A stretch of DNA of 13,548 bases from Planctomycetota bacterium (lineage in GTDB: Bacteria; Planctomycetota; UBA1135): positions 1 to 13,548 of the forward strand of contig JAQWRF010000083.1 of assembly GCA_029243845.1 (NCBI GenBank), written 5' to 3'. Position 1 is the first letter of the stretch, and each line of letters starts with the position of its first letter. Shown in pieces: positions 1-13,177 of the stretch. The notes under the pieces were generated by a model. The model saw only the letters and a list, made by a program, of their open reading frames with translations. It was not told where the DNA came from and searched no databases. A program made the translations under genes and the position numbers.

Positions 1-197
1 ACATCTTCAGCCCAAGAGTCTTGCTGGCCATTCCAGAACTCTGAGTAAACTTGCGAAATCTCATTGGCCTGCAAGGGCTCAATTTGTTGGCGCGCAGTCG
101 TCCATTGGCGCCATGAAAGCATGGCCGTGCCAAGTACGAGAATCACCGCCCATAGGGCAGTTTTCTTCAGTAAGCTGTCGGTGTTGAGTAATTTCAT
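1..197 (-). CDS. Membrane-anchored hypothetical protein, N-terminus only
   Basis: An open frame begins with ATG at 197 and runs without a stop to the window edge, giving 65 residues. It starts MKLLNTDSLLKKTAL and has two lysines just before a hydrophobic stretch (about residues 13-27, ALWAVILVLGTAML), followed by a polar, glutamine-rich segment. This is the pattern of a single N-terminal signal anchor with the rest of the protein outside the inner membrane. The gene lies 55 bp after the nitroreductase stop, on the same strand, so it is probably the last visible gene of that operon. No Shine-Dalgarno sequence is visible. The bases just before the ATG form one arm of an inverted repeat. I do not recognise the family, and the function is unknown. 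Confidence 0.7.
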   Translation of the reverse strand, partial: MKLLNTDSLLKKTALWAVILVLGTAMLSWRQWTTARQQIEPLQANEISQVYSEFWNGQQDSWAED

Positions 198-248
198 CGC
201 TGAGTAGCTATATATCGGCCATTTCCGGCCTTTAGCTTTAACTCAGCG
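198..248 (-). repeat. Nested inverted repeat abutting a start codon
   Basis: Three nested complementary pairs lie in the gap between the nitroreductase stop and the downstream ATG. The outer pair is CGCTGAG (198-204) with CTCAGCG (242-248). The middle pair is AGCTA (206-210) with TAGCT (233-237). The inner pair is GGCC (217-220) with GGCC (227-230). In the minus-strand transcript the outer 3' arm ends directly against the ATG at 197, where a ribosome-binding site would normally lie. There is no T-tract, so an intrinsic terminator is unlikely. A translation-controlling or processing hairpin is inferred only. Confidence 0.5.
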
Positions 249-252
249 GTGA

Positions 253-888
253 TTATTTATCGTCAATTTCTCCGCATAAACCCTTTTTACCAAAGGAGTT
301 ATGTGAGACAAGCTCTTCGAAGTCAAAAAGTCCCATTCGAGCTTGAGCGGCTTTCACTCCTCTACCCACGGTAATCATCATTAAGGGTGGGCAATCTTCT
401 GGCAAGCCAACAATTTCGGCGACCTTAGCCGCGTCGTAGCCAATCATCGGGCAACTATCGAGCCCCATATCTTTGGCTATCAGCATAATATTTTGCGCTA
501 GCAACCCAATGGAACGCACTGCCTCGTCACGCTGCAGCTGCTCATTCCCGTCGTACAGTCCATTCACAAAGCCTGCAAACATCTCTTGGACCTTTTCAGG
601 AGCTTTCCGCGTAAAGCGCGCCACCTTTTTATAGCCTGTAATACTGCCGCCCAATATCAAAGTCACCGAACAATCTTTGACCTGCGCTTGATGCCATGAC
701 GCCTCACACAAGGCATCTTGCTGTGCCTGATCATCAACAGCAACCACATGCCAGTTTTGCATATTAAAAGAAGATGGCGCCAAAAAAGCGTGCCCCAATA
801 GGTGGCGTAATTCATCTTCAGTAAGGCGATGTTCGGCGTCAAAGTGTTTGACCGAACGACGCTGGCGGATAGCATCTATTAATTCCAT
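253..888 (-). CDS. Nitroreductase family FMN-dependent oxidoreductase
   Basis: This 211-residue protein has the length and motifs of a small nitroreductase-fold flavoprotein. Such enzymes are usually cytoplasmic homodimers that bind FMN and use NAD(P)H to reduce nitro compounds, quinones or enones. Visible motifs are the N-terminal phosphate-binding RRSVKHFD (10-17), APSSFNMQNW (37-46), the helix QNIMLIAKDMGLDSCPMIG (132-150), where FMN and the partner subunit meet, and the terminal strand ITVGRG (172-177). The ATG at 888 shares its A with the TAA of the upstream gene (TAATG), and no good Shine-Dalgarno is visible, so translation is probably coupled. The family call is strong. The physiological substrate cannot be read from sequence. 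Confidence 0.93.
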   Translation of the reverse strand: MELIDAIRQRRSVKHFDAEHRLTEDELRHLLGHAFLAPSSFNMQNWHVVAVDDQAQQDALCEASWHQAQVKDCSVTLILGGSITGYKKVARFTRKAPEKVQEMFAGFVNGLYDGNEQLQRDEAVRSIGLLAQNIMLIAKDMGLDSCPMIGYDAAKVAEIVGLPEDCPPLMMITVGRGVKAAQARMGLFDFEELVSHNSFGKKGLCGEIDDK

Positions 889-1916
889 TAATCTAATTTT
901 AACAACTTGCCTTCAACAAAAGACGACCAGCCTTTAACAATAGTATGACCCTTAAAACCAATAGGCCCAGCATGCCACGTAACCCCATCGAGTGACCAAT
1001 CACAACCGTCGGGGCCAACAGCAAGCCAAGCGTCATATTCACTAAGCCAATCGACAGCCGAGCGATACCCGCTAGGCATAACAGTGGACGCCGTCCATGT
1101 CAGACCACCGTTATCGGTGAAGGCCGCAACTTGCTCATTTATTTCCGGATGCTCATAATCACCACCAACAATCACGCCGTGTAGTTCATTTTTGAATGCC
1201 ATTGAAAAAACTCCGCTACCGTCACTACCGCTAATAAACGGGATGTCAACAGCCATCCAATGATCACCGCCATCAACTGAACGCCAAACTTGTGATTCGG
1301 CGCCTCCAGTGGCTATTAACGCGGTGTTCTGAGATATTAGTGCTAAGCTTGTGCCTGATGCCGCAAAACAATATTGACGGTCTCCTACAACTGGAGGACT
1401 CATTGCATCTCGGTAAGACGCGCCGCCATCGACTGTAATCATTACGGTCAACTTACCGTCAATGGGGTCACCAACTAACATACCGTGATTAGAATGGTTC
1501 CAGAAAGCAATGCCGTCCCAAAATCCTTGATCTTGGTCATTGACGAATGCTGGGCCAAGCAAGGTTTTCGTACCGAGTAATTCTATGCGACTAACCGTCG
1601 ACGCCCTACCCGGGCCAGCCGACATCACTACGATGGTTCCATCATTTAATATTTCAACATCGCGATAGTCTAGAGCCGACTCAATCTCCAGCGATGTCAA
1701 AGACTGCAGAGGGTCGCCATCTGACCATGCGACATATCCTCCAGTCCCAGAAACGGCGAGCATATCGCCCTTCACGGCTAAACCGCGCTGAGAGCCATCG
1801 TCCACATCTAGCTCATATACAACAAAGTCCGCGCCCGCCAGTGAAACCGGCGGAGACGGACTACATGCCATAAGGCACAGTGTTGCGAATAAAACCTTAC
1901 TCGTCGTTGCCGCCAA
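888..1916 (-). CDS. Ycf48-like (BNR/Asp-box) beta-propeller lipoprotein
   Basis: A 342-residue predicted outer-membrane or periplasmic lipoprotein. The N-terminus has a lysine at 7, a hydrophobic stretch and a lipobox LMAC with the acylated cysteine at 18. Asp-box-like repeats are visible at about 161-168 (TVDGGASY), 213-220 (SVDGGDHW), 267-274 (TDNGGLTW) and 308-314 (SLDGVTW). The landmarks GDPIDGK (149-155), GGDY (251-254) and GYRSAV (283-288) are typical of bacterial relatives of the photosystem assembly factor Ycf48, often labelled 'oxidoreductase' or 'sialidase-like'. Their role outside phototrophs is unknown. No sialidase catalytic set is evident. The best start is TTG at 1916, inside the upstream histone gene (20-bp overlap), because the next ATG (codon 16) would remove the signal peptide. 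No clear Shine-Dalgarno precedes it, so translational coupling is likely. Confidence 0.85.
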   Translation of the reverse strand: MAATTSKVLFATLCLMACSPSPPVSLAGADFVVYELDVDDGSQRGLAVKGDMLAVSGTGGYVAWSDGDPLQSLTSLEIESALDYRDVEILNDGTIVVMSAGPGRASTVSRIELLGTKTLLGPAFVNDQDQGFWDGIAFWNHSNHGMLVGDPIDGKLTVMITVDGGASYRDAMSPPVVGDRQYCFAASGTSLALISQNTALIATGGAESQVWRSVDGGDHWMAVDIPFISGSDGSGVFSMAFKNELHGVIVGGDYEHPEINEQVAAFTDNGGLTWTASTVMPSGYRSAVDWLSEYDAWLAVGPDGCDWSLDGVTWHAGPIGFKGHTIVKGWSSFVEGKLLKLD

Positions 1917-2097
1917 AATCGCGGTCCATGACTGTTTTACGCTTACTTGCTGCAGCGTTATCCATAGCTTGATCGCACATTTGAGCGATTAGGCCAGAAA
2001 GATGACCTGCCACAGAACCTGAAGTGGACATGCCTGATTTGGCTTTGATGTACTTCTTAATTTTTGATTGGACAACTAATACTTCTTGATCTGACAT
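1897..2097 (-). CDS. Bacterial histone-fold protein (single domain)
   Basis: A 66-residue protein that reads as one histone fold. It has a short helix 1 (about 6-20, LVVQSKIKKYIKAKS), a loop (GMSTSG, 22-27), a long helix 2 (about 28-51), the loop-2 motif RKTV (53-56) and a short helix 3 ending in DRDF (58-61). R53 and D60 sit at the spacing of the Arg-Asp clamp that closes loop 2 in archaeal and eukaryotic histones. There are no long charged tails. The ATG at 2097 has a strong AGGAG seven bases upstream. The gene leads an operon with the Ycf48-like lipoprotein. Histone-fold proteins occur in scattered bacteria, for example Bdellovibrio, where one binds DNA as a dimer. A nucleoid or DNA-bending role is inferred here. 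A dimerising regulator of its own operon is an alternative. Confidence 0.8.
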   Translation of the reverse strand: MSDQEVLVVQSKIKKYIKAKSGMSTSGSVAGHLSGLIAQMCDQAMDNAAASKRKTVMDRDFGGNDE

Positions 2098-2106
2098 TTT
2101 TAATCT
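2098..2106 (-). promoter_or_regulatory. Strong ribosome-binding site of the histone gene
   Basis: In the minus-strand transcript AGGAG lies seven bases before the ATG at 2097. It is one of only two clear Shine-Dalgarno sequences in the window, the other being that of the FAD subunit. It suggests efficient translation, as expected for an abundant chromatin protein. Confidence 0.7.
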
Positions 2107-2176
2107 CCTGTTTTAGGGGGGCTAAATGAGGGCGCTCGCCGCCTGACGTCGAAATGACGACCTGCTGAGCGTTAGC

Positions 2177-2185
2177 AATATAGCA
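2177..2185 (-). promoter_or_regulatory. Candidate extended -10 promoter for the histone operon
   Basis: On the minus strand TGC directly precedes TATATT, a TGn-TATAAT-like extended -10 with one mismatch in the hexamer. It would start transcription near 2170 and leave a leader of about 73 nt that contains a short imperfect hairpin (CGCTC 2133-2137 with GAGCG 2167-2171; CGTC 2147-2150 with GACG 2156-2159). I see no convincing -35 at normal spacing, which extended -10 promoters can tolerate. Confidence 0.4.
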
Positions 2186-2237
2186 AGTGGAGGGCTGTTT
2201 TGCCGTCCAAATTTGCTTTTTTTAAGGGTAATTTGGC

Positions 2238-2243
2238 TACAAT
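2238..2243 (+). promoter_or_regulatory. Candidate -10 box of the molybdenum hydroxylase operon
   Basis: TACAAT matches TATAAT at five of six positions. The nearest -35-like hexamer, TTGCTT at 2213-2218, is 19 bp upstream, slightly long. The start point would fall near 2250, only about two bases before the likely ATG at 2252, so the mRNA would be nearly leaderless. This agrees with the absence of a clear Shine-Dalgarno there. Confidence 0.35.
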
Positions 2244-2251
2244 ATGGACAA

Positions 2252-2749
2252 ATGCGGGTATTTCACCTCAAAATCAACGGCGATACAGTCGATGTCGCCG
2301 CTCCAGAGCACTACACTTTGCTCGAAATCTTGCGCTATGAACTTGGTTTGACAGGCTCTAAGCAGGGTTGCGACAAGGGTGATTGCGGTTCGTGCACTGT
2401 TCAAGTCGATGGTGTGCCCATGCTGTCCTGTCTCGTACTGCCTTCTACTGTTGAGAGTAAAGCCATTACGACTATCGAAGGTTTAGCGGTTCAGCATCGT
2501 TCAGACGGCGGAGAAGGCGCCTCGCTATTGCAAAATGCTTTTGACGCGGCTGGTGCTTTGCAGTGTGGTTTTTGCCAACCTGGCATGATTATGTCTGCAC
2601 AGGCATTGCTCGAAAGCAACGCCACCCCAAATCGCGACGACATCAAGCAGGCCCTAGCCGGCAACTTGTGCCGCTGCACTGGCTACACCCAGATTTACAC
2701 TGCCGTCGAATCGGCCGCAAAAGACGGGGGCGAAAATGGCTGCTCGTGA
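2252..2749 (+). CDS. Molybdenum hydroxylase small subunit, 2x[2Fe-2S] (HcrC-like)
   Basis: A 165-residue iron-sulfur subunit that passes electrons between the FAD subunit and the molybdenum cofactor of the large subunit. It has the usual two halves. The N-terminal plant-ferredoxin-like domain has cysteines at 40, 45, 48 and 60 (GCDKGDCGSC). The C-terminal four-helix domain has cysteines at 105, 108, 140 and 142 (QCGFCQPGMIM and GNLCRCTGY). All eight ligands are present. I prefer ATG 2252 because the domain begins at once (MRVFHLKING) and the length matches the family. An in-frame TTG at 2213 would add 13 residues that look unrelated to the family. The next gene starts inside its last 14 bp. 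The small-large-medium order is the one I recall for 4-hydroxybenzoyl-CoA reductase (hcrCAB). The subunit alone does not define the substrate. Confidence 0.93.
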   Translation: MRVFHLKINGDTVDVAAPEHYTLLEILRYELGLTGSKQGCDKGDCGSCTVQVDGVPMLSCLVLPSTVESKAITTIEGLAVQHRSDGGEGASLLQNAFDAAGALQCGFCQPGMIMSAQALLESNATPNRDDIKQALAGNLCRCTGYTQIYTAVESAAKDGGENGCS

Positions 2750-5075
2750 TAAACACGGCCCTGACGCTCCTTGGGGAGACGGCTTTAAGGTTATTGGCAA
2801 GCCCAACCGCAAAGTTGATGCCCTAGCCAAAGCGACCGGCGAGGCTATCTACACAGACGACATCAGCCTGCCAAACATGCTGCACTCAAAGACGCTGCGC
2901 AGCCCGCATGCACATGCGAAAATTTTGTCGATTGATACCTCAAAGGCTGAAGCGCTTGAAGGCGTGTACGCTGTTTTAGTCGGTAGCGAATTACCAATTA
3001 AGTACGGAGTCATCCCATGGACACCAGATGAAAATGTATTGGCGACGGACAAAGTGCGTTTTATTGGCGACGAAGTGGCAGCAGTAGCAGCGATCGATGA
3101 AGACACCGCGATTGAGGCCTGCGAGTTAATCGAGGTCGAATACGAACTGCTCGAAACCATCGTCACTGCCGAGCAAGCATTGGTGACCCCCGAGCCACCG
3201 ATTCACGATGATCGCAAAAAGCGTAACAACATTTCTAAGCACGTCGAACTCGAGTTTGGCGACGTCGATGCGCAAGTGGACGACGCCGATTTAGTCGTTG
3301 AAAACGATTACTACTTCCATAGTACTACCCACACTGCCATCGAGCCGCACTGTGCGGTCGCGACTTTCGGTAACGACGGACGCTTAACGCTGTGGTCGTC
3401 CACTCAAATCACGCATTACGTTCATCGTGCTTTATCACGAGTCCTTGAAATGGACCCCGCTAAGATTCGTGTGATTCAGCCAAACGTCGGCGGCGGGTTT
3501 GGCGGCAAGAGCGATCCATTCGCCCTCGAATTCATCACCGCGATGCTATCCAAGAAATCGGGTCGCCCAGTGAAAATGTTATGGACGCGTGAAGAAGTAT
3601 TCTACGCACATCGCGGACGTCACTCTATGCAAATGCATTACCGCACCACTGCCAAATCTGATGGCACGATTACCAGTGTTGATGCCAAGTTGTTGATTGA
3701 CGGTGGCGCTTACTCCAGTTTCGGCTTGGTGACCACCTATTACAGTGGTCAACTGTTAACCGGACCTTACGCTTTCCCTAATTATCGTTTTGACTCAACC
3801 CGAGTGTTCACCAACCGCCCGCCATGTGGCCCAAAGCGTGGGCACGGTTCAGTGCAGCCACGCTTTGCTTTTGAAGTGCAACTAGACGAAGTTGCAACCA
3901 AACTTGATATTGACCCAATCGAAATTAGGCGAAAAAACTTTTTAGGCGAAAACACAACCACAATTAATGGGCAGCGCATTACTTCAAACGGTTTTCTTGA
4001 ATGTTTAGATGCTGTAGAAGAAGCTAGTGATTGGAAGAGCAAGCACAGGAAAATGAGATATGGCACTGGCATTGGCGTCGCTGGCTCCATGTATATCTCT
4101 GGCACTAACTATCCTGTTTACCCCAACAAGATGCCGCAAGCTGGTGTGCAACTAAAGGTTGATCGCAGTGGCTTAGTAACTGTGTTCACCGGTGGTAACG
4201 ACATCGGCCAAGGGTCAAACTCAATGGTGGCTTATTGCGTGGCAGAAGAAATGGGCATTAACCCCGATTCGATAAAAGTTGTCGCCGCCGACACCGATTT
4301 GTGTCCTGTTGATTTGGGCGCTTATTCCTCACGGGTAACCTTTATGGTTGGCAACGCTGCCATCGATGCCGCACGCAAAATGCGCAACAAGATAGTCGAA
4401 GCCGTTGCCGAACATTGGAAGGTAGAAAAAGAATCCGTGCGCATTATTGATGGCACGGTTTATAACCTTGACAACGACGAAGAAACTTTAAGCCAGCGCG
4501 AAGCCTTCCATGTCACCGAAGAAAAATTCGATACCTTGGGCTCAACGGGCTCATACAACACCCCAACTTTGGGCGGCGATTACCGCGGCGGAACGATCGG
4601 TTCGTCGCCCGCGTATTCGTTTACTAGCCACGTTGCCGAAGTTGACATCGACACCGAAACAGGAGAAATAGAAGTCAAAAAAATATGGGTGGCTCACGAT
4701 TGCGGACGCGCTCTTAACCCTATATTGGTCAAAGGTCAAATCGAAGGTTCCACCTACATGGGTGCTGCCGAAGTGTCTTTAGAAAATTACGAAATGAATC
4801 GTTTCTCACTGCATGCTGGCCCATCGCTACTTGATTACCGCATACCGACGACACTCGATACCGCAGAGATCGAGGCATTGATTGTCGAAAGCATTGACCC
4901 CGAAGGACCATATGGCGCCAAAGAAGCAGGCGAAGGTCCGCTGCACTCTGCTATTCCGGCCGTGGCAAATGCTATCTATGATGCTGTCGGTATTCGTTTA
5001 CGCGAATTGCCGTTTACCCCGGCTAAAGTCTTGGCCGCTCTTAAAGAGAAAGATGAGGTGACCGCTGATGCTTAG
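2736..5075 (+). CDS. Molybdenum hydroxylase large subunit, 4-hydroxybenzoyl-CoA reductase alpha-like
   Basis: A 779-residue catalytic subunit of the xanthine oxidase family, binding molybdopterin cytosine dinucleotide in the cytoplasm. Its length is close to HcrA (about 770). The N-terminal a/b-hammerhead domain carries KVDALAKATGEAIYTDDI (26-43). Cofactor motifs are GGGFGGK (252-258), NRPPCGPKRGHG (360-371), GGNDIGQGSNS (486-496) and GAKEAGEGP (727-735), where E733 sits at the place of the family's active-site glutamate. The AYRCSFR copper loop of CO dehydrogenase is absent. ATG 2736 overlaps the small-subunit gene by 14 bp and follows a G-rich stretch (2726-2730). The gene overlaps the FAD subunit by 8 bp. 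The HcrA assignment rests mainly on the partner subunit. The real substrate may be another aromatic acyl-CoA or a heterocycle. No XdhC-type cofactor-insertion factor is in the window. Confidence 0.88.
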   Translation: MAARDKHGPDAPWGDGFKVIGKPNRKVDALAKATGEAIYTDDISLPNMLHSKTLRSPHAHAKILSIDTSKAEALEGVYAVLVGSELPIKYGVIPWTPDENVLATDKVRFIGDEVAAVAAIDEDTAIEACELIEVEYELLETIVTAEQALVTPEPPIHDDRKKRNNISKHVELEFGDVDAQVDDADLVVENDYYFHSTTHTAIEPHCAVATFGNDGRLTLWSSTQITHYVHRALSRVLEMDPAKIRVIQPNVGGGFGGKSDPFALEFITAMLSKKSGRPVKMLWTREEVFYAHRGRHSMQMHYRTTAKSDGTITSVDAKLLIDGGAYSSFGLVTTYYSGQLLTGPYAFPNYRFDSTRVFTNRPPCGPKRGHGSVQPRFAFEVQLDEVATKLDIDPIEIRRKNFLGENTTTINGQRITSNGFLECLDAVEEASDWKSKHRKMRYGTGIGVAGSMYISGTNYPVYPNKMPQAGVQLKVDRSGLVTVFTGGNDIGQGSNSMVAYCVAEEMGINPDSIKVVAADTDLCPVDLGAYSSRVTFMVGNAAIDAARKMRNKIVEAVAEHWKVEKESVRIIDGTVYNLDNDEETLSQREAFHVTEEKFDTLGSTGSYNTPTLGGDYRGGTIGSSPAYSFTSHVAEVDIDTETGEIEVKKIWVAHDCGRALNPILVKGQIEGSTYMGAAEVSLENYEMNRFSLHAGPSLLDYRIPTTLDTAEIEALIVESIDPEGPYGAKEAGEGPLHSAIPAVANAIYDAVGIRLRELPFTPAKVLAALKEKDEVTADA
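5055..5061 (+). promoter_or_regulatory. Ribosome-binding site deciding the FAD-subunit start
   Basis: GAGGTGA lies inside the end of the large-subunit gene, six bases before ATG 5068. Its match to the anti-Shine-Dalgarno favours 5068 over the in-frame ATG at 5077. Confidence 0.7.
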
Positions 5076-6057
5076 AATGCCTAAATTCAAGGTTCTGAAT
5101 CCGGCTACTGTTGCCGAAGCTGTGGATGCTATCCAGCAAGTCGAAGGCTCCCGTTTTATTGCTGGAGGGACCGATATCAATCCCAATCTAAAGCACCGTT
5201 TGCTCGAGCCCGAATGTTTGGTCGCGCTTAATGGTGTCGAAGAAATTTTCGGTATTAGTCAGACGGAGTTCGGTTTGCGTATCGGAGCAATGGAATCACT
5301 GACCAATGTTGAAACCAACACATTGATTCAGCAACTAGCCCCCGGCCTAGCGTCGGCATCGCGACAGGTTAGTGGCCCGCAGTTACGTAACATGGGCACG
5401 ATTGGCGGCAACGTCATGCTTGACACACGTTGTAAGTGGTACAACCAGACTTACTTCTGGCGCAAGTCACTTGGGTTTTGCTTAAAGAAAGATGGCGATG
5501 TTTGCCACGTGATAAAAGGTGGCTCTAAATGTGTGGCCGCTGCGTCAAACGATACTGCGGCTGCGCTTTCAACTCTGCAGGCCGAATTAGAATTTGCTAA
5601 TGCACAGGGAAGCACACGCATTGCGATTGATAAACTTTGGCAAGCAGACGGCATCTGGAATAAAAAAGTCGGGCCGCATGATTTGTTAGTGGCTATTCAT
5701 TTACCCGCTGCGCTGCTGAACCAAAAAGGTAGTTACAAAAAACTACGCGATCGCAACTCTATTGACTTCCCATTACTCGGAATTGCGGCGCGGCTCAAGA
5801 TAAGCGATAACATCGTTGATGATTGCGCTTTATGTGTGGTGGCATTGCAAGCGCGCCCTTGGCCCCTTGACAAAGCGAGCGCTCTTTTGATTGGCACTAC
5901 CGTTGGCAGCGACGCGTTCAACGAGGCTCTAAAGGCGTGTTGCGCAATAGCGGCGAAACAATGTCGACCAATGCCTAACATTCCTGGTGATCATGCATAC
6001 CGCCATGCAATGGTCCCCGTCTTTATTCGCCGCGCAATTTTGTCATGTTTAGATTAA
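5068..6057 (+). CDS. Molybdenum hydroxylase FAD subunit with [4Fe-4S] insertion (HcrB-like)
   Basis: A 329-residue FAD-binding subunit of the CO dehydrogenase/xanthine dehydrogenase medium-chain family. FAD motifs are AGGTDINP (32-39) and GTIGGNVMLDTR (110-121). Directly after comes an insertion with cysteines at 122, 138, 146 and 155. From memory these are the same positions as the [4Fe-4S] ligands of the Thauera beta subunit, and this cluster is the hallmark of 4-hydroxybenzoyl-CoA reductase. The surrounding YNQTYFWRKSLGFCLKKDGD is also HcrB-like. In that enzyme the extra cluster lets electrons run from ferredoxin toward the molybdenum site for reductive dehydroxylation. ATG 5068 is supported by GAGGTGA at 5055-5061, six bases upstream. 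It overlaps the large-subunit stop. ATG 5077 is a weaker alternative. Its last 13 bp overlap the lipoprotein gene. Confidence 0.9.
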   Translation: MLRMPKFKVLNPATVAEAVDAIQQVEGSRFIAGGTDINPNLKHRLLEPECLVALNGVEEIFGISQTEFGLRIGAMESLTNVETNTLIQQLAPGLASASRQVSGPQLRNMGTIGGNVMLDTRCKWYNQTYFWRKSLGFCLKKDGDVCHVIKGGSKCVAAASNDTAAALSTLQAELEFANAQGSTRIAIDKLWQADGIWNKKVGPHDLLVAIHLPAALLNQKGSYKKLRDRNSIDFPLLGIAARLKISDNIVDDCALCVVALQARPWPLDKASALLIGTTVGSDAFNEALKACCAIAAKQCRPMPNIPGDHAYRHAMVPVFIRRAILSCLD

Positions 6058-7214
6058 GTATCACTTTTCTTTTGCTATGCTCGGCTATTTCGTGCAGTAA
6101 GTCTACTCAACAAGCCTCGGCACCACTTGCTGAATTCACAGTAGAGCTTAATCGCAAGAACTTTAAGGAGTGGTTTGCTCAATGCTACCCATCGCATGAC
6201 GAATTGAAATGGAGATTACTCGGGTGGGAACAGCACACTGCGCCCGGATTTAGGCTTGCTAAGGCTAGTCGTAAACCTTTAATGTTATGGCTTGAGGATG
6301 GCCACCCATTGGGAGGCACCTCTGACCATGGCCGCGAACTCCGCGACACTTTTGGCGACTTAGATTTGGTACCGGTCCTCGGCAAGTATGTGATTGCAGC
6401 AGATGATTTCAACCGCGCGCCTAAAATTATCGATTCGGCCCAGGGAGAGCTCATTGTATTCACTCCAGGCGGGAAAATAATCGGGCGCACCTCTGCGACT
6501 GATGTACCGGCGGTCGTTGAATTTTTAACGACCGGCCTAGACAGCTTCGCAAGTATGAGCGCAGAAGAGTCGGGCGCAACAATTAGCGAAGATTTGTTGA
6601 GCGGCGCCTTCCGCACTGAAGATGACTTCCCTGACGAAGGCTTGTCTTTAGAAGTTTTTACCCGTGCGGTGAATTCACTTGATATAAACACCATCAAGCG
6701 CAACCCCTGGAATAAGGATTACATTTGGTTTAATAGCGACGAAATAAAGCGCTTCGTTAAGCCAATAAAGATTAGTAGTAAAAAGAGTTTAGCCACTGAC
6801 TTGCTTGGCAGGATAATCGATCACGGCCTACTGCCTCCCTACGTTGGCGCACCGAGTTCATGGGACCATGAAAACACTCTTGAATCAGAATTGATCTTTT
6901 CGTGTAACTCAATCATTAAAAGTCGTTCTACCTATTTGATTAGCGGCTCGGCGCATTACGAACAAGATGGCAAAGTGCTGAATGTGCAAATGCGGGGCAC
7001 TGCCATGTATGACGATTCACGAGATCAATTTGGGCTACTTGAAATAATCGCGCTTGCCGAATATGTTGATGGCAACAATGCCCCACAATTATTCACGACC
7101 GCATTACGCAAAGTAACTTCGATAGATGGTTGGCACCGCGTGCCACCTAAAGCATTGTCTGATTACGCTGATGCTTATTACTCTGTAAGCGGCTCGGGCA
7201 ATCCGAACAAGTAG
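6045..7214 (+). CDS. Secreted lipoprotein with thioredoxin-like region, no CxxC
   Basis: A 389-residue exported protein. Residues 1-17 form a signal peptide (MFRLSITFLLLCSAISC) with a usable but imperfect lipobox AISC, so C17 may be lipid-anchored. Residues about 55-165 look like a thioredoxin fold: a helix with APGFRLAKASRKP, a strand LMLWLEDGHP (79-88), and later strands around LIVFTPGGKIIG (136-147). At the place of the redox motif there is LGGTSDHG (89-96), without cysteine, so thiol chemistry is unlikely. The C-terminal half (about 195-389) is unrecognised. The ATG at 6045 overlaps the FAD-subunit gene by 13 bp with no visible Shine-Dalgarno, so it is translationally tied to the cytoplasmic molybdenum enzyme. 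Its stop lies 37 bp inside the end of the opposing GGDEF-EAL gene. The function is unknown. An accessory or sensing role for the operon is inferred from linkage only. Confidence 0.75.
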   Translation: MFRLSITFLLLCSAISCSKSTQQASAPLAEFTVELNRKNFKEWFAQCYPSHDELKWRLLGWEQHTAPGFRLAKASRKPLMLWLEDGHPLGGTSDHGRELRDTFGDLDLVPVLGKYVIAADDFNRAPKIIDSAQGELIVFTPGGKIIGRTSATDVPAVVEFLTTGLDSFASMSAEESGATISEDLLSGAFRTEDDFPDEGLSLEVFTRAVNSLDINTIKRNPWNKDYIWFNSDEIKRFVKPIKISSKKSLATDLLGRIIDHGLLPPYVGAPSSWDHENTLESELIFSCNSIIKSRSTYLISGSAHYEQDGKVLNVQMRGTAMYDDSRDQFGLLEIIALAEYVDGNNAPQLFTTALRKVTSIDGWHRVPPKALSDYADAYYSVSGSGNPNK

Positions 7215-9085
7215 CCCTGCGCGTAGTCGACTCCGAGCTCTTGCAAGACTTCAAAGTCTTCCTCTTCCTCGACACCCTCGGCGACAATGGTTGCATTCCA
7301 TGGAGCGACCATCTGCATCAGATTAAAGAGCATGGTGCGCTGTTCTTGACGCTGTGATATTTTCGAGACAAGGGCGCGGTCGATTTTTACAACTTCGGGG
7401 CGCACCAACAATATCGTCTCCAGGCTAGAGAAGCCGTTGCCGACGTCATCTAAAGCAATTTTGAGGCCTGCCGCGCGAAGTTTTTGTAGCATCTCTGCAA
7501 AGAGTTGTGGCTTTTGCACGAGCTCTTTTTCGCTTAGCTCTAAGCAGACGTTCGACAAGCGCTCTCCCTGTGGCAGCATACGCAGAATTTCTTCGGCCAT
7601 ATGGTATTCAAGAGAGGACGGCAAAATATTGAGATGGCAAGCTTGACCCGGGCGCAGAGTTCGAGTCGCCCGCGTACATGCCTTAAAGGCATTCATATCC
7701 ACTAAATTTACGATGCCCACGTCTTTGGCGAATTGCAGAAAATCTTCCGGGCTGTGCAGCCCTGGGCAACTGCTTCGCGTAAGCAATTCGTAGCCCGCTA
7801 CGCTGCGATTTTTCACATCAATGATGGGCTGGCGCAATGCGAAGAATGAACTTGGTTCACGTAACAACTTAACCATCTCTTCAGCATTCAGGCGTTGATC
7901 ACTAACGGCAGTGAATAAATTATCTTCGTGGATAATACGGCCTTTACCCAGCCGCTTAGCCGCGTGCAAAGCGCGCTCGGTACGCTCAATGAAATCAGCA
8001 ACGGCCTCGTCTTCTTTGTTAGCGCTAACCAGCCCCAGACTTAAGCCGATGCGAATGTGTGGGAAACGCTCAGCGACTACTGCAGTCGACAACCCGTTAA
8101 ATAATTTCTCGGCAACCAGCGTCGCTGCGGCTCGATCAGTGTCTGGCAGTAATACCATAAACTCATCGCCACCTAAACGCGCAACATGGTCGGTAGAGCG
8201 GACGGCACTTTCAATCATGGACGAAACGTTGCGCAACACTTCGTCACCGGTACTATGACCGTAAACGTCGTTAATGCGCTTGAAATCATCGAGGTCAATA
8301 AACAGTGCCTGTATATCGGTTTTATTTACTCTGCGGCGCTCTACTTCTTGCTCTATCGAGCGACGTAAGCCTCGGCGGTTTAGAACTCCGGTAAGAGGGT
8401 CGAGCCGACTCAGGCCTTCGAGTTGAGTTCTAAGGCGAACCGTATCTGTTGCATCGCGGCATACTCCGACAATACGGCTTGGCGATCCAGAGGAGTCATG
8501 CGCCACTTCAGCCTGCATATTAAGGTGCTGGAATTCTCCATTGGATAACATGACTCGATACTCAATGTCTACTGGTGTATCGCTCATTACCAGCTGCGAA
8601 GTCGCGTCTACAATCTTCGCCACATCTTCGGGATGCACTCGCTCAAGCATGTCATCACGACTCTTTATCTCGGCAGTGCTTCCGGCACTGTGCATGTCTT
8701 GAAAGGATGCGTCACCATAAAACTCTTCGCCATTGATGTCCCAACTCCAGCTACCCAGTTTAGAAAATGATTTGAATAACGAATGACTGTCGAAGGAAGT
8801 CGCCTTGCTACCATCCCTTTTATCAGACAAAAGGCGATGTGAAAACCCTGCCAAGGTGGTACTCAAAAATGTTTGCACAGCGAGGCGCATCTTTTCAGGC
8901 AGGGGGTTGCCGTGTTCTGCGCGCAATTCTTTGATAACCTCCGTCTGAACATCTTGAATTCTATCCGGAGACCAACCGTCATCAGCAAGTTGTACGCCAA
9001 ACGAGACACCATCAACATCACGCTCACCAACTGCGGCGGCGCGCATTTGGCTCGTAAAATCGAAAGATGTTAGTGAGGTACTCAT
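7178..9085 (-). CDS. PAS-GGDEF-EAL c-di-GMP synthase/phosphodiesterase
   Basis: A soluble protein of 635 residues (638 if GTG 9094 is used; numbering here follows the longer form). Residues 1-105 are unrecognised. A PAS domain spans about 113-220 (LGSWSWDING, then HPEDV, then VGVCRDATD). A GGDEF domain spans about 230-390 with intact GGDEF (308-312) and an RxxD inhibitory site (R299, D302) five residues upstream. An EAL domain spans about 415-635. Its signature reads ELL (436-438), but metal and catalytic positions are kept: E436, N489, E519, D549 and D550, K570, E606 and Q626. Both synthesis and hydrolysis of c-di-GMP are plausible, with PAS sensing an unknown cue. No membrane segment is seen. 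ATG 9085 is preferred because GGGGTG lies a few bases upstream. It follows the hydrolase gene by 34 bp on the same strand. Confidence 0.93.
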   Translation of the reverse strand: MSTSLTSFDFTSQMRAAAVGERDVDGVSFGVQLADDGWSPDRIQDVQTEVIKELRAEHGNPLPEKMRLAVQTFLSTTLAGFSHRLLSDKRDGSKATSFDSHSLFKSFSKLGSWSWDINGEEFYGDASFQDMHSAGSTAEIKSRDDMLERVHPEDVAKIVDATSQLVMSDTPVDIEYRVMLSNGEFQHLNMQAEVAHDSSGSPSRIVGVCRDATDTVRLRTQLEGLSRLDPLTGVLNRRGLRRSIEQEVERRRVNKTDIQALFIDLDDFKRINDVYGHSTGDEVLRNVSSMIESAVRSTDHVARLGGDEFMVLLPDTDRAAATLVAEKLFNGLSTAVVAERFPHIRIGLSLGLVSANKEDEAVADFIERTERALHAAKRLGKGRIIHEDNLFTAVSDQRLNAEEMVKLLREPSSFFALRQPIIDVKNRSVAGYELLTRSSCPGLHSPEDFLQFAKDVGIVNLVDMNAFKACTRATRTLRPGQACHLNILPSSLEYHMAEEILRMLPQGERLSNVCLELSEKELVQKPQLFAEMLQKLRAAGLKIALDDVGNGFSSLETILLVRPEVVKIDRALVSKISQRQEQRTMLFNLMQMVAPWNATIVAEGVEEEEDFEVLQELGVDYAQGYLFGLPEPLTE

Positions 9086-9119
9086 TAAAGGCACCCCATT
9101 ATCGGCTAATTGCGCCTAT

Positions 9120-10154
9120 TTATTGAGTATTTTGCGCTTTTTCAAAGCGAAAAGCGCAATATTCAATCACCCTATTTTCGGCCCACCAACGGTCAGCATC
9201 GGCCCAGGTCAAGCTATTAGCAGCCTGTGCTCCAAAAAAACCACAATGTCCGCCGTGTTTAGACAACAATAGTCGCAGATTGGGATTGTTCTCAACAGCC
9301 TCGCGTGTTGGCTCGCAATAAGGTACTAGCGGGTCGTCTTCGGAGTGAATAATCAGCGTCGGTATTTCTATTTTAGGAATAACATGCAAGGCCGAAGCGC
9401 GGTCGTAATAGTCACTCGCGCTATCAAAGCCGAATGATGGCGCTGTCCATTGCTTATCAAAGGAATAAAAATCTTCGTAGCCGTAGCCAGCGTCTTGCGG
9501 ATACAACTCTGGGTATTCGGCGGCTTTGTTTTTCATCGACTTAGCGAAACCAAGTAAAAACTTTTTCATGTACATGCGATTCATGAAACCCTTATGCATA
9601 GTGCGCGAAGTGCTCACTAAATTAAACGGCGTCGATACGCAAACCATTGCTTTTAAGTTGGGCGGCAACTGCTTGCCCCACTTGGCAACCGTGTGCGTGA
9701 TAATAGAACCGCCAAGTGAATACCCTGCCAATGCAATTGGAGCCAGCGGAAATTCTTTAGCAATATAATCGAATGTTGCTTCGACGTCATCAGTCAGCGC
9801 CGCGTGATACAAAGTGGGTGTGCGTTTTTCACTGCCTCCACAATTTCTAATGTTGATGCGTATTACGCTCCAGCCTTGCAAAAAAGCTTTTTGTGCAACG
9901 CCTAGCATATAAGGCGATTGCGATGAGCCTGACAAACCATGCACCATCACCAATACTGGCTTTACACGATCTGGCTGCACATTAAGCTCTAATAAAATAG
10001 AAGTCTGGCTATCAACAGCGAGCCACTTCTTTTCGGAGATGCTGTCGAACGGTCCGGAGGGGCGCGGCAACATCGACCCAGCTATCGTCATCGCGTGCTG
10101 ATCACGCAATAATGGATGCGGAAAGAAAGCGGGAAAGCGGGGTTTTTCTAGCAT
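9120..10154 (-). CDS. YheT/ABHD-type alpha/beta hydrolase
   Basis: A 344-residue alpha/beta-hydrolase of the YheT (COG0429) family, slightly longer than usual at the C-terminus. Diagnostic blocks are VMVHGLSGSSQSPY (69-82, oxyanion region), RINIRNCGGSEKRTPTLYHA (99-118, typical of YheT) and the nucleophile elbow GYSLGG with S146. The acid lies in SEDDP (D273 or D274) and the histidine in GGHCGFF (H303). The triad is therefore complete. Members are esterases or lipases acting on short or medium acyl esters or lipids, but no physiological substrate is settled. The ATG at 10154 follows the fadE TAA with no gap (TAAATG), so the two are surely co-transcribed. This fits release of fatty acids for FadE. 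No signal peptide is evident. Confidence 0.92.
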   Translation of the reverse strand: MLEKPRFPAFFPHPLLRDQHAMTIAGSMLPRPSGPFDSISEKKWLAVDSQTSILLELNVQPDRVKPVLVMVHGLSGSSQSPYMLGVAQKAFLQGWSVIRINIRNCGGSEKRTPTLYHAALTDDVEATFDYIAKEFPLAPIALAGYSLGGSIITHTVAKWGKQLPPNLKAMVCVSTPFNLVSTSRTMHKGFMNRMYMKKFLLGFAKSMKNKAAEYPELYPQDAGYGYEDFYSFDKQWTAPSFGFDSASDYYDRASALHVIPKIEIPTLIIHSEDDPLVPYCEPTREAVENNPNLRLLLSKHGGHCGFFGAQAANSLTWADADRWWAENRVIEYCAFRFEKAQNTQ

Positions 10155-12584
10155 TTACCAACCGCCATCAAGGGCCGTTGCCAGGTATTCGGATTCAGAA
10201 AACGAATCTACAGTAATCGCATCGGTGCGCAGTTCTTCTGCTCGCGTAACGATTGCGACATCATTTTCGTTAATGATACCTTTTTCTAATGCTTCATCAA
10301 GCAAAGATATTGGAGCGCGGCGCGGCAACTCACCTTTGCGAATGGCATCTTTAATGCGGGCGGCAACTTTGTCAGCTGCTAACGATGCCCGATATGCCGT
10401 TTCTAATTTTGCGAAGGCATCCTTTTCATTGGTCGGCATGTAAATACCCTCGGTCAAGCGATCGCGCTGGTTGCCTTGCTGTTGCAAGATGCGCGCAACG
10501 CGCTGAGTCATTTTATCGCTTGGTCCTTTACTTAATCCATTAATGCGCGCGAAGAAACCTATAGGCCCGCGAAGGAAGGCGCCTACTATCGGCATGTCAA
10601 AGTTTGCGTATAAACCATCAAAGGCCTTTTGGATGTTGTGCAAGGTGTTCTCCATCGACCAACGATAAAGCGCGTAATCTTCTTTGCTACGTCCTTCGGC
10701 CTCGAAGCGACGTAGCAAAGCACTGGCAATGTACATCCCCGAGAAGGCGTCGCTGAAGCGACCGGTTAGCATCTCTTTGCGCTTGAGGTCGCCACCATAT
10801 GAGATCATCGCCACATCAGCCAAAATGGCAAAGCGTGATGATGCCCAGGATAGTCTTTGGTAATCGCGACGTAGCCGACCTTCGGATGGCACTGAAGCTG
10901 CGTAACCACGAGTTAAGTTCATCACCAACGAACGGCTCAGATTGGTGACGATGTGCCTAATATGGCCAAAGAATGCAAAGTCAAAGTGTTTGACGTCACC
11001 ATTTTCTAACGCTGTGATCTCATTCTCGGCAAATGGGTGACAGCGAATGGCACCTTGACCAAAGACCATCAAGGTGCGGGTTAAGATGTTTGCTCCTTCA
11101 ACTGTAATGGAGATGGGTGCCGCAAAATAAGCATGGGCAAGTAAGTTACGCGGTCCGCGTGAGATGCCAGCGCCACCACAAATATCCATAGCGTCATTGA
11201 TGACATCGCGCATAATCTCAGTGAAATTGTATTTCGCGATTGCAGATGCCACTGCAGGCTTTGCACCACCGTCTAGACCGCCACAAGTAAAGCGACGGGT
11301 GGCTTCGAGGGTGTATGCCGCTCCACCGATACGTGCCATTGGCTCTTCGATACCTTCGAACTTACCGATAGACATGCCAAATTGTTTACGCACCATTGAG
11401 TAAGCCCCAACAACTCGTGCCGCCATTTGTGTTCCAGCTGTGGCCGAAGACGGCAACATAATGCCGCGTCCTGCAGCTAGCTGTTCCATAAGCATGCGCC
11501 AGCCTTGGCCGACTCGGTCTGGTCCACCGACTAAAATATCGATACCTACTATCACATTATCGCCTTCAAATGGGCAATTAAAGAAGGGCACGTTTAATGG
11601 ATCGTGTTGACGCCCGGTCGTAATGCCTGGTGTCTCGGCTGGAATCAAACCACAGCAGATACCAAGCTCGGTGCCGCGCTGTAATAGATTTTCTGGGTCG
11701 AACAACTTAAAGGCAAGTCCTATCAATGTCGCACGTGACGCCAAAGTGATATAACGTTTTTCCCAGTCAAGACGAATTTTTAATACTCCGTTTTCGTCTT
11801 TGAATACTTCACCGCGCGCGCGGATGCTTCCGGCATCAGAGCCCGCATGGGGCTCCGTTAACGCAAAGCATGGTATTTCTTTACCAGCCGCCAAGCGTGG
11901 CAGTAATTTTTCCTTTTGCTCTGGGGTGCCATAGTGCATCAACAATTCTGCTGGGCCTAGAGAGTTTGGCAGCATTGCAGTAATACCAAGTGGGATACTG
12001 CGTGAACTTAACTTTTTAATGACTGCCGATATTGCTGTCGCTGAGAATTCTAAGCCACCATATTCTTTAGAAATAATCATGCCGAAGAAACCTTCGTTTC
12101 GCAAATAAGACCATACTTCCGGGGGCAAATCACGCTTTTGGTAAACCAGCCAGTCATCGGTCATCGCACAGACTTCCTCTGCAGGACCTTCCAAGAAGGA
12201 TATTTCATTATCCGTCAATTCAGGGTATTTCTCTTGTTCAATCAGGCGCTTGAAGTCTGGGTTGCCAGAAAACAATTCTCCTTCGTACCACACCGTGCCG
12301 GCGTCGAGAGCTTCGCGTTCTGTTTTGGAGATAACCGGCAGCAGTCCCATTGCTTTTATCATTTTCATTAGCGGCGCAGTGACTATGCGTTGACGTAACG
12401 CGGGCACCAAGAAAACTAAAGCCGGAACCCCCAGTACAATGCAGAACCAAGTTGGCGCACCCACGTATGCGAGAGCAAGTGCCGTCCAAATAATCCAGTA
12501 AGGGAATTGGGCTGAAAAAAATCCGAGGACAATTAGCCCATCGATGTAAAGGCCTATCGCGGTGATGCAAAGAATGATACTCAT
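10155..12584 (-). CDS. fadE: Acyl-CoA dehydrogenase FadE
   Basis: An 809-residue protein, close to E. coli FadE (814). FadE catalyses the first beta-oxidation step, FAD-dependent 2,3-dehydrogenation of acyl-CoA, at the inner membrane. The N-terminus (to about residue 65) holds two or three hydrophobic segments. The acyl-CoA dehydrogenase core follows, with CFALTEPHAGSDAGS (239-253), RKQFG (399-403), CGGAGISRGPRNLLAHAYF (469-487) and EGANILTR (496-503). The C-terminal part matches the extra domain typical of FadE. ATG 12584 overlaps the TetR TGA in the classic ATGA arrangement. An in-frame TTG at 12623 would add 13 residues of no family likeness and was not used. Expression is probably controlled by the TetR protein encoded just upstream. 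Chain-length preference cannot be read from the sequence. Confidence 0.95.
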   Translation of the reverse strand: MSIILCITAIGLYIDGLIVLGFFSAQFPYWIIWTALALAYVGAPTWFCIVLGVPALVFLVPALRQRIVTAPLMKMIKAMGLLPVISKTEREALDAGTVWYEGELFSGNPDFKRLIEQEKYPELTDNEISFLEGPAEEVCAMTDDWLVYQKRDLPPEVWSYLRNEGFFGMIISKEYGGLEFSATAISAVIKKLSSRSIPLGITAMLPNSLGPAELLMHYGTPEQKEKLLPRLAAGKEIPCFALTEPHAGSDAGSIRARGEVFKDENGVLKIRLDWEKRYITLASRATLIGLAFKLFDPENLLQRGTELGICCGLIPAETPGITTGRQHDPLNVPFFNCPFEGDNVIVGIDILVGGPDRVGQGWRMLMEQLAAGRGIMLPSSATAGTQMAARVVGAYSMVRKQFGMSIGKFEGIEEPMARIGGAAYTLEATRRFTCGGLDGGAKPAVASAIAKYNFTEIMRDVINDAMDICGGAGISRGPRNLLAHAYFAAPISITVEGANILTRTLMVFGQGAIRCHPFAENEITALENGDVKHFDFAFFGHIRHIVTNLSRSLVMNLTRGYAASVPSEGRLRRDYQRLSWASSRFAILADVAMISYGGDLKRKEMLTGRFSDAFSGMYIASALLRRFEAEGRSKEDYALYRWSMENTLHNIQKAFDGLYANFDMPIVGAFLRGPIGFFARINGLSKGPSDKMTQRVARILQQQGNQRDRLTEGIYMPTNEKDAFAKLETAYRASLAADKVAARIKDAIRKGELPRRAPISLLDEALEKGIINENDVAIVTRAEELRTDAITVDSFSESEYLATALDGGW

Positions 12585-13177
12585 GATGATTGTTGAATGG
12601 GATTGAGCATTGACATGGCGCAATCAACTGTACGCGTTACAAAAACATCTCTCGAGATGCGTGTATCAATGCGTTGTGCCAGGTATAGAGAAGTGGCTCC
12701 GTGTAATAACGACCACACCATGGTGGCGTCTACTAAGGGATCGAGTAGTGGTTGTTGTTCGCCGCGAGCCTTGTGCAACACGTCGGCAAATTGCTGTAAA
12801 TTGCGTCGCGCACGACGGTATTTCTCAGCTGGGAATGGAGCCATTTCGTCAGTCGGCAGCTGAAACATGATGACGTAATATTCAGGATTAGTGAATCCGT
12901 ATTCTAGAAATGAGCTGCACATTAATTTAAATTGCGCAGCAGAATCGGACTCAGACGCCAAGCATTCCTCTATTTTTTGGTGCAAACTGTCCATTCCTTC
13001 TTCGATTAGCGCGTGAATTAAGGCGTCTTTGTTCTCGAAGTAAAGATAGATGGCGGTTGGTGTGCAGCCTACCAAATTGGCTACTTTCCGCATAGATACA
13101 TGGCTGTAGCCATTTTCCACCAGCAAATGCCTAGTTTGCTCGAGGATTTGTTCGCGGAGATTATTGTATTTTGCCAC
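12581..13177 (-). CDS. TetR-family repressor of the fadE operon
   Basis: A 198-residue TetR-type regulator. The N-terminal helix-turn-helix runs over about residues 8-53 (LREQILEQTRHLLVENG, then VSMRKVANLVGCTPTAIYLYFENKDAL), with the canonical YLYFENK end of the recognition helix. The C-terminal ligand and dimer domain (about 60-190) is variable. An acyl-CoA or fatty acid ligand is inferred from context. The start is GTG at 13177. No Shine-Dalgarno is visible and upstream in-frame sequence offers nothing better. The gene overlaps fadE by 4 bp and diverges from a thiolase. Two palindromes in the 48-bp gap are the obvious operators and would allow autoregulation. The role resembles PsrA or FadR-like control, but the operator differs from the PsrA GAAAC-N4-GTTTC type I recall. 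Confidence 0.93.
   Translation of the reverse strand: MAKYNNLREQILEQTRHLLVENGYSHVSMRKVANLVGCTPTAIYLYFENKDALIHALIEEGMDSLHQKIEECLASESDSAAQFKLMCSSFLEYGFTNPEYYVIMFQLPTDEMAPFPAEKYRRARRNLQQFADVLHKARGEQQPLLDPLVDATMVWSLLHGATSLYLAQRIDTRISRDVFVTRTVDCAMSMLNPIQQSS

Follow-up and report, generated by a model that had tools for sequence, protein, structure and literature searches.

The 13,548 nt window analysed here (contig JAQWRF010000083.1) comes from a metagenome-assembled genome (MAG; GCA_029243845.1) of Planctomycetota and carries, at positions 1897..2097 of the reverse strand, an open reading frame (ORF) for a 66-residue protein. We consider it very probable that this protein is a bacterial dimer (α3) histone of the HBb type acting, by analogy with HBb, as a general DNA-bending nucleoid protein. 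The ORF starts with ATG, and an AGGAG ribosome-binding-like site, recognised by reading the sequence, lies 7 nt 5′ of it (2105..2109, reverse strand); AGGAG also occurs 5′ of the histone gene in genome G017, from the same genus. The histone gene is under purifying selection, with a dN of 0.089 and a dS of 0.89 between these two copies (NG86, 61 codons). A protein database search returned 64 candidates, 63 of which were homologous to the window histone at E ≤ 0.001, and the named ones among them bore titles of Planctomycetota, Myxococcota or Chlamydiae. This high proportion of homologues, together with the values of dN and dS, indicates that the gene is not a chance ORF.

The closest solved relative of the window histone is HBb/Bd0055 of Bdellovibrio (8cmp, 8fvx), which matched residues 5–61 with a phmmer E value of 6e-10. 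Five different sequences matched in the PDB sequence search at E values of up to 10; the next protein after HBb was HLp of Leptospira (9qt0, E 3e-6), the archaeal histone HTkC (9f2c) appeared at E 0.85, and the last match was an unrelated fimbrial fusion (E 7.5). In the general libraries, the histone models scored below the cut-off, both Pfam CBFD_NFYB_HMF (E 0.055) and the NCBIfam archaeal histone (E 0.094).

The bacterial dimer class was defined in the literature by sequence clustering (CLANS), and the paper on the class lists its members for Bdellovibrionota, Elusimicrobiota, Spirochaetota, Planctomycetota, Myxococcota_A and Chlamydiota. Besides similarity to HBb, the class is characterized by an α3 of 3–4 residues, a shortened α2, lysines in α1 (positions 11, 13, and 17), and a lack of the R48 and N52 of face-to-face (FtF) histones. 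The window histone is similar to HBb/Bd0055 by phmmer, and its predicted model displays both the truncated α3 and the shortened α2. For residue comparisons we used an alignment of 63 rows, comprising the window histone and 62 of its 63 homologues (P0055, which has a long tail, was left out). The class motif RKT...D is present as RKTVMDRD at residues 53–60, with the R, the K, the T and the final D invariant in all the rows; four residues separate the T from the clamp D, as in HBb (RKTVMARD), whereas the paper prints three (RKTxxxD). According to our mapping of the published numbering, the α1 lysines are K12, K14, and K18. The positions of R48 and N52, mapped by hand through the HLp alignment, are occupied by N47 and S51, and in these columns R is found in 6 and N in none of the 63 rows; because of these replacements we favour the bacterial dimer class. 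A ZZ histone, which would carry an N-terminal ZZ zinc finger, was also considered and rejected, as the histone fold covers the 66-residue protein and Pfam gave no hit to a ZZ domain at E values of up to 1. PMC10627809 gives histone folds for 1.86% of 18,343 bacterial genomes and HU for 92.8%; this is therefore a rare but known class. Few studies have dealt with bacterial dimer histones, and the window protein is a further clear example of them.

AlphaFold2 modelled the single chain with helices at residues 3–21, 29–50, and 58–61 (mean pLDDT 85.7), and a Foldseek search with this model ranked HBb first; structure comparison also showed a similar fold for the HLp monomer. A preliminary description of the window, made from its letters alone, had proposed a bacterial histone with a helix-loop-long helix-RKTV-short helix architecture and an arginine-aspartate (RD) clamp formed by R53 and D60. 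The architecture agrees with the modelled helices, with RKTV at 53–56, and both residues are where they had been placed; likewise, the histone assignment is borne out by the sequence match, the predicted model and the residue mapping. The alignment columns corresponding to the dimer interface are hydrophobic in the window histone, which, by homology to HBb, most likely forms a handshake homodimer.

The DNA contacts named as important for HBb in PMC11317129 are N22, R57, S9, T53, T8, S24, K10, K12, K52 and K16, and its RD clamp is R51–D58. In an ungapped alignment with 8fvx, with a shift of two, these contacts correspond to S24, R59, S11, T55, Q10, S26, K12, K14, K54 and K18, respectively, so that 8 of the 10 are identical in the window histone, the exceptions being T8 (Q10) and N22 (S24); additionally, D49 of HBb, which contributes an additional salt bridge to the clamp, is replaced by S51. 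The contact residues S11, K12, K14, K54, T55 and R59 and the clamp residues R53 and D60 are invariant in the 63 rows, as are M23, A48 and the remainder of the R53–D60 stretch, although column invariance is favoured here because homologues were picked by their similarity to the window histone. K18 is kept in 62 rows and S26 in 58, position 10 is variable, and position 24 contains S in 46 rows and N in 17. A cysteine in α2 (C41) is found in 59 of the 63 rows and also in the HBb sequence as aligned. By homology to HBb, the homodimer would contact DNA irrespective of its sequence, using the L1-L2 loops (S24, S26, K54, T55, and R59) and the start of α1 (S11, K12, K14, and K18), and would bend the bound DNA as HBb does, serving as one nucleoid-associated protein beside HU.

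The preliminary description had taken the host for a gammaproteobacterium and the histone for an uncommon find there; the host assignment was not supported. Twelve of the 18 family loci retrieved, including that of G017, could be tied by exact 200-base matches to named records, and all 12 carry Planctomycetota in their submitters' titles. Since the bacterial dimer class had already been listed for this phylum, a histone is to be expected in this host and the surprise disappears. Besides, among 80 of 286 loci, such histones occur in MAGs titled Gammaproteobacteria or with names of families that we take to be gammaproteobacterial (L105, L109, L114, and L115), so that group, too, would have precedents for the fold. 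The source MAG spans 1.80 Mb in 391 contigs and is 84.8% complete. We also considered that the contig could be mis-binned, and rejected it: positions 1–3076, the stretch that contig C70 of G017 (8.1 kb) can span and that this check covers, align to it in one 80% match, with a GC content of 0.493 vs. 0.494, and this part of the window therefore belongs to the lineage.

The histone is present in 19 of the 26 genomes of the window's family. A profile search of the whole order at 1e-4 matched 25 of 154 genomes, those 19 plus 6 of the 128 outside the family, three of them weakly (E above 1e-5); in a sample of the phylum, 134 of 392 genomes matched the profile, with the dimer and FtF classes pooled. 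Neither a histone nor a lipoprotein match (see below) was found in G016, of the same genus, but this genome is about 84% complete and the absence is thus no evidence of loss. The HU/IHF family (PF00216) was found in all 26 genomes, with two copies in that of the window (G000), in a search whose control gave a match in 9 of 14 named genomes. With histones in 19 and HU/IHF in 26 of 26 genomes, this family is a candidate group for examining how a histone and HU share a chromosome.

A tree of 87 histones, built on 62 columns and with 33 of 84 inner branches open, placed the window histone in a set of eight rows (95/91) together with that from G003 and six rows titled Planctomycetota. Other histones of the family are found elsewhere, for example with G009 and G010 beside a row titled Gemmatimonadota and G012 near gammaproteobacterial rows, and the distribution of Planctomycetota on the tree needs 10 changes, 2 of them forced; from this scatter, horizontal transfer is neither shown nor excluded. 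The bacterial-dimer-like histones from L109 (Chromatiaceae), L114 (Gammaproteobacteria) and L115 (Thiotrichaceae) form one set (100/100). Separately, a locus titled Euryarchaeota (L052), possibly a mis-binned contig, contains a histone of the bacterial dimer type that is 61% identical to that of the window.

Downstream of the histone gene, and also on the reverse strand, there is an ORF for a putative lipoprotein (888..1916), possibly a β-propeller with BNR-like repeats; if the TTG at 1916 is its start, as we infer, it overlaps the 3′ end of the histone gene by 20 nt. The exported β-propeller of the preliminary description is plausible but weak: a lipobox-type signal peptide can be recognised by eye and Pfam matches to Sortilin-Vps10 and BNR fall below the cut-off, while the PDB search produced nothing convincing (a designed protein came first, at E 0.064). 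This ORF overlaps by 1 nt a gene for a nitroreductase-family protein (253..888, reverse strand; PF00881, E 7e-29), and the contig end breaks a further reverse-strand gene, of which the 5′ part remains (3..197; cluster c3); its same-genus homologue (L020:2890–5427) is a hybrid histidine kinase with HisKA, HATPase_c and Response_reg domains. Divergent from the histone gene, positions 2213–6057 of the forward strand encode a molybdenum hydroxylase of three subunits (2Fe-2S, molybdopterin, and FAD), similar to xanthine dehydrogenase or CO dehydrogenase, and the same divergent arrangement with the histone is seen in G017 for homologues of the first two subunit genes. The reverse strand of 7178–13177 encodes a long GGDEF-EAL type protein, and reading of its ORFs suggested a putative FadE-like acyl-CoA dehydrogenase as well as a putative TetR-like regulator. 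In some relatives (L022:5614–6653, L027:8566–9630), the region upstream of the histone contains a gene for a sigma-70-type (ECF-like) factor followed by a small gene, and a DUF3179 protein over two ORFs.

A lipoprotein homologue is present in 20 of the 26 family genomes. In 10 of the 19 histone-bearing genomes, from 5 of 12 histone-bearing genera, it directly follows the histone gene with the same orientation (G000, G017, G003, G004, G005, G006, G007, G015, G019 and, weakly and at a contig end, G018). Nine of these ten, counting the window, have a nitroreductase homologue in the downstream region, in some cases preceded by inserted genes (for instance, an MFS transporter and an epimerase-like gene). 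In the nine genomes without adjacency, the lipoprotein gene is on another contig (seven genomes) or on the same contig but at a distance of about 106 kb (G025), or no homologue was found (G014). Neither the lipoprotein nor the nitroreductase was found at E 1e-4 in 68 named loci not tied to the family, several of them with short flanks. On these grounds, a general histone-propeller operon was rejected. As to the lipoprotein-nitroreductase operon that the histone had been said to head, the genes are arranged accordingly in the window and in G017; yet, among loci with both genes (G003, with N bases, left out), the ORF overlap was seen only in these two genomes and not in the others with adjacency, and 9 of the 19 genomes lack adjacency. 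A literature search turned up nothing on the histone-lipoprotein gene pair.

The divergent intergenic region between the histone gene and that for the 2Fe-2S subunit (2098..2251, if the latter starts at the ATG at 2252) is, from the gene layout, the probable promoter region of both, and a consensus scan found no promoter-like match within it on the histone strand; along positions 100–2400 of the window, the scan yielded 3 promoter-like and 2 terminator-like sites vs. means of 2.7 and 2.1 in shuffled sequences. We also folded six stretches following histone genes. Strong terminator-like hairpins were found just 3′ of the histone gene in G005 and G006, of a sister genus (L021:7038–7098 and L025:8256–8319; z −5.4 and −6.0, none of 200 shuffles as good), with z values of 0.11 for G000, −0.25 for G017, −1.23 for G004 and −2.22 for G019 (3 of 200 shuffles as good); a similar inverted repeat follows the histone in G003, as judged by eye. 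The simplest reading is that the histone would mostly be its own transcription unit in the relatives with hairpins, and that the hairpin is missing in the window's genus, where the lipoprotein and nitroreductase genes probably share a transcript with the histone, although not a process. One caveat is that the longest lipoprotein ORFs of G005 and G006 begin inside or just before the hairpins; the true starts are more likely to be later ATGs that lie closer to the signal peptide.

The gene order invites the alternative that the histone fold was recruited as a local, TAF-like or operon-specific regulator of the lipoprotein-nitroreductase-sensor kinase cluster, with the overlap providing stoichiometric control. 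The adjacency in five genera and the overlap in two species are in its favour, but the nine histone genes located away from the lipoprotein gene, the strong hairpins in G005 and G006, the conservation of most DNA-backbone contacts of HBb and the lack of a lipoprotein or nitroreductase match in the 68 named loci not tied to the family, some with short flanks, make it unlikely. There is an even slighter chance that the histone is co-expressed and made in step with the exported lipoprotein, the nitroreductase and the sensor kinase across this planctomycete family, tying nucleoid compaction to an envelope or redox stress response; the tie between histone and cluster is weakly supported, and the place of the lipoprotein gene beside the histone seems to reflect local gene order rather than a common job.

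A DNA-wrapping FtF histone that forms tetramers, as HLp of Leptospira does, would agree with the position of HLp as the next match after HBb and with its similar monomer fold; this is very improbable, since HBb scores better in both sequence and structure searches and the residues at the FtF positions are replaced in the window histone and nearly always differ among its homologues. The least credible alternative, to which we give a minimal probability, is a member of some other family of small helical proteins with no more than a resemblance to histones. Pfam GHMP_kinases_N (E 0.015) did rank slightly above the histone model, both being below the cut-off, against a direct match to solved histones along 57 residues, the fold comparison and the invariant RKTVMDRD motif. 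The HBb-type dimer histone, with a predicted general role in the nucleoid, is therefore the explanation that we retain.

Among known histones, the archaeal nucleosomal ones, exemplified by HMfB, have in common with the window histone, according to the literature, the histone fold, the RKT loop and the clamp, but the α2 and α3 of HMfB are longer and the identity in the structural alignment is only 20%. HLp from Leptospira perolatii (9qt0), described as tetrameric in PMC12701072, has the same α3-truncated fold, the RD clamp and an SK motif at the start of α1; the window histone, in contrast, lacks equivalents of R48 and N52, and is less similar to HLp than to HBb. HBb/Bd0055 from Bdellovibrio bacteriovorus (8cmp, 8fvx, 9ezz, 9f0e) has the same length, helix pattern, RD clamp and hydrophobic interface, and differs in its phylum and in the three residues indicated above (T8, N22, and D49, for Q10, S24, and S51). 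The window histone is thus very like the one studied in Bdellovibrio, and represents an already known kind of bacterial histone.
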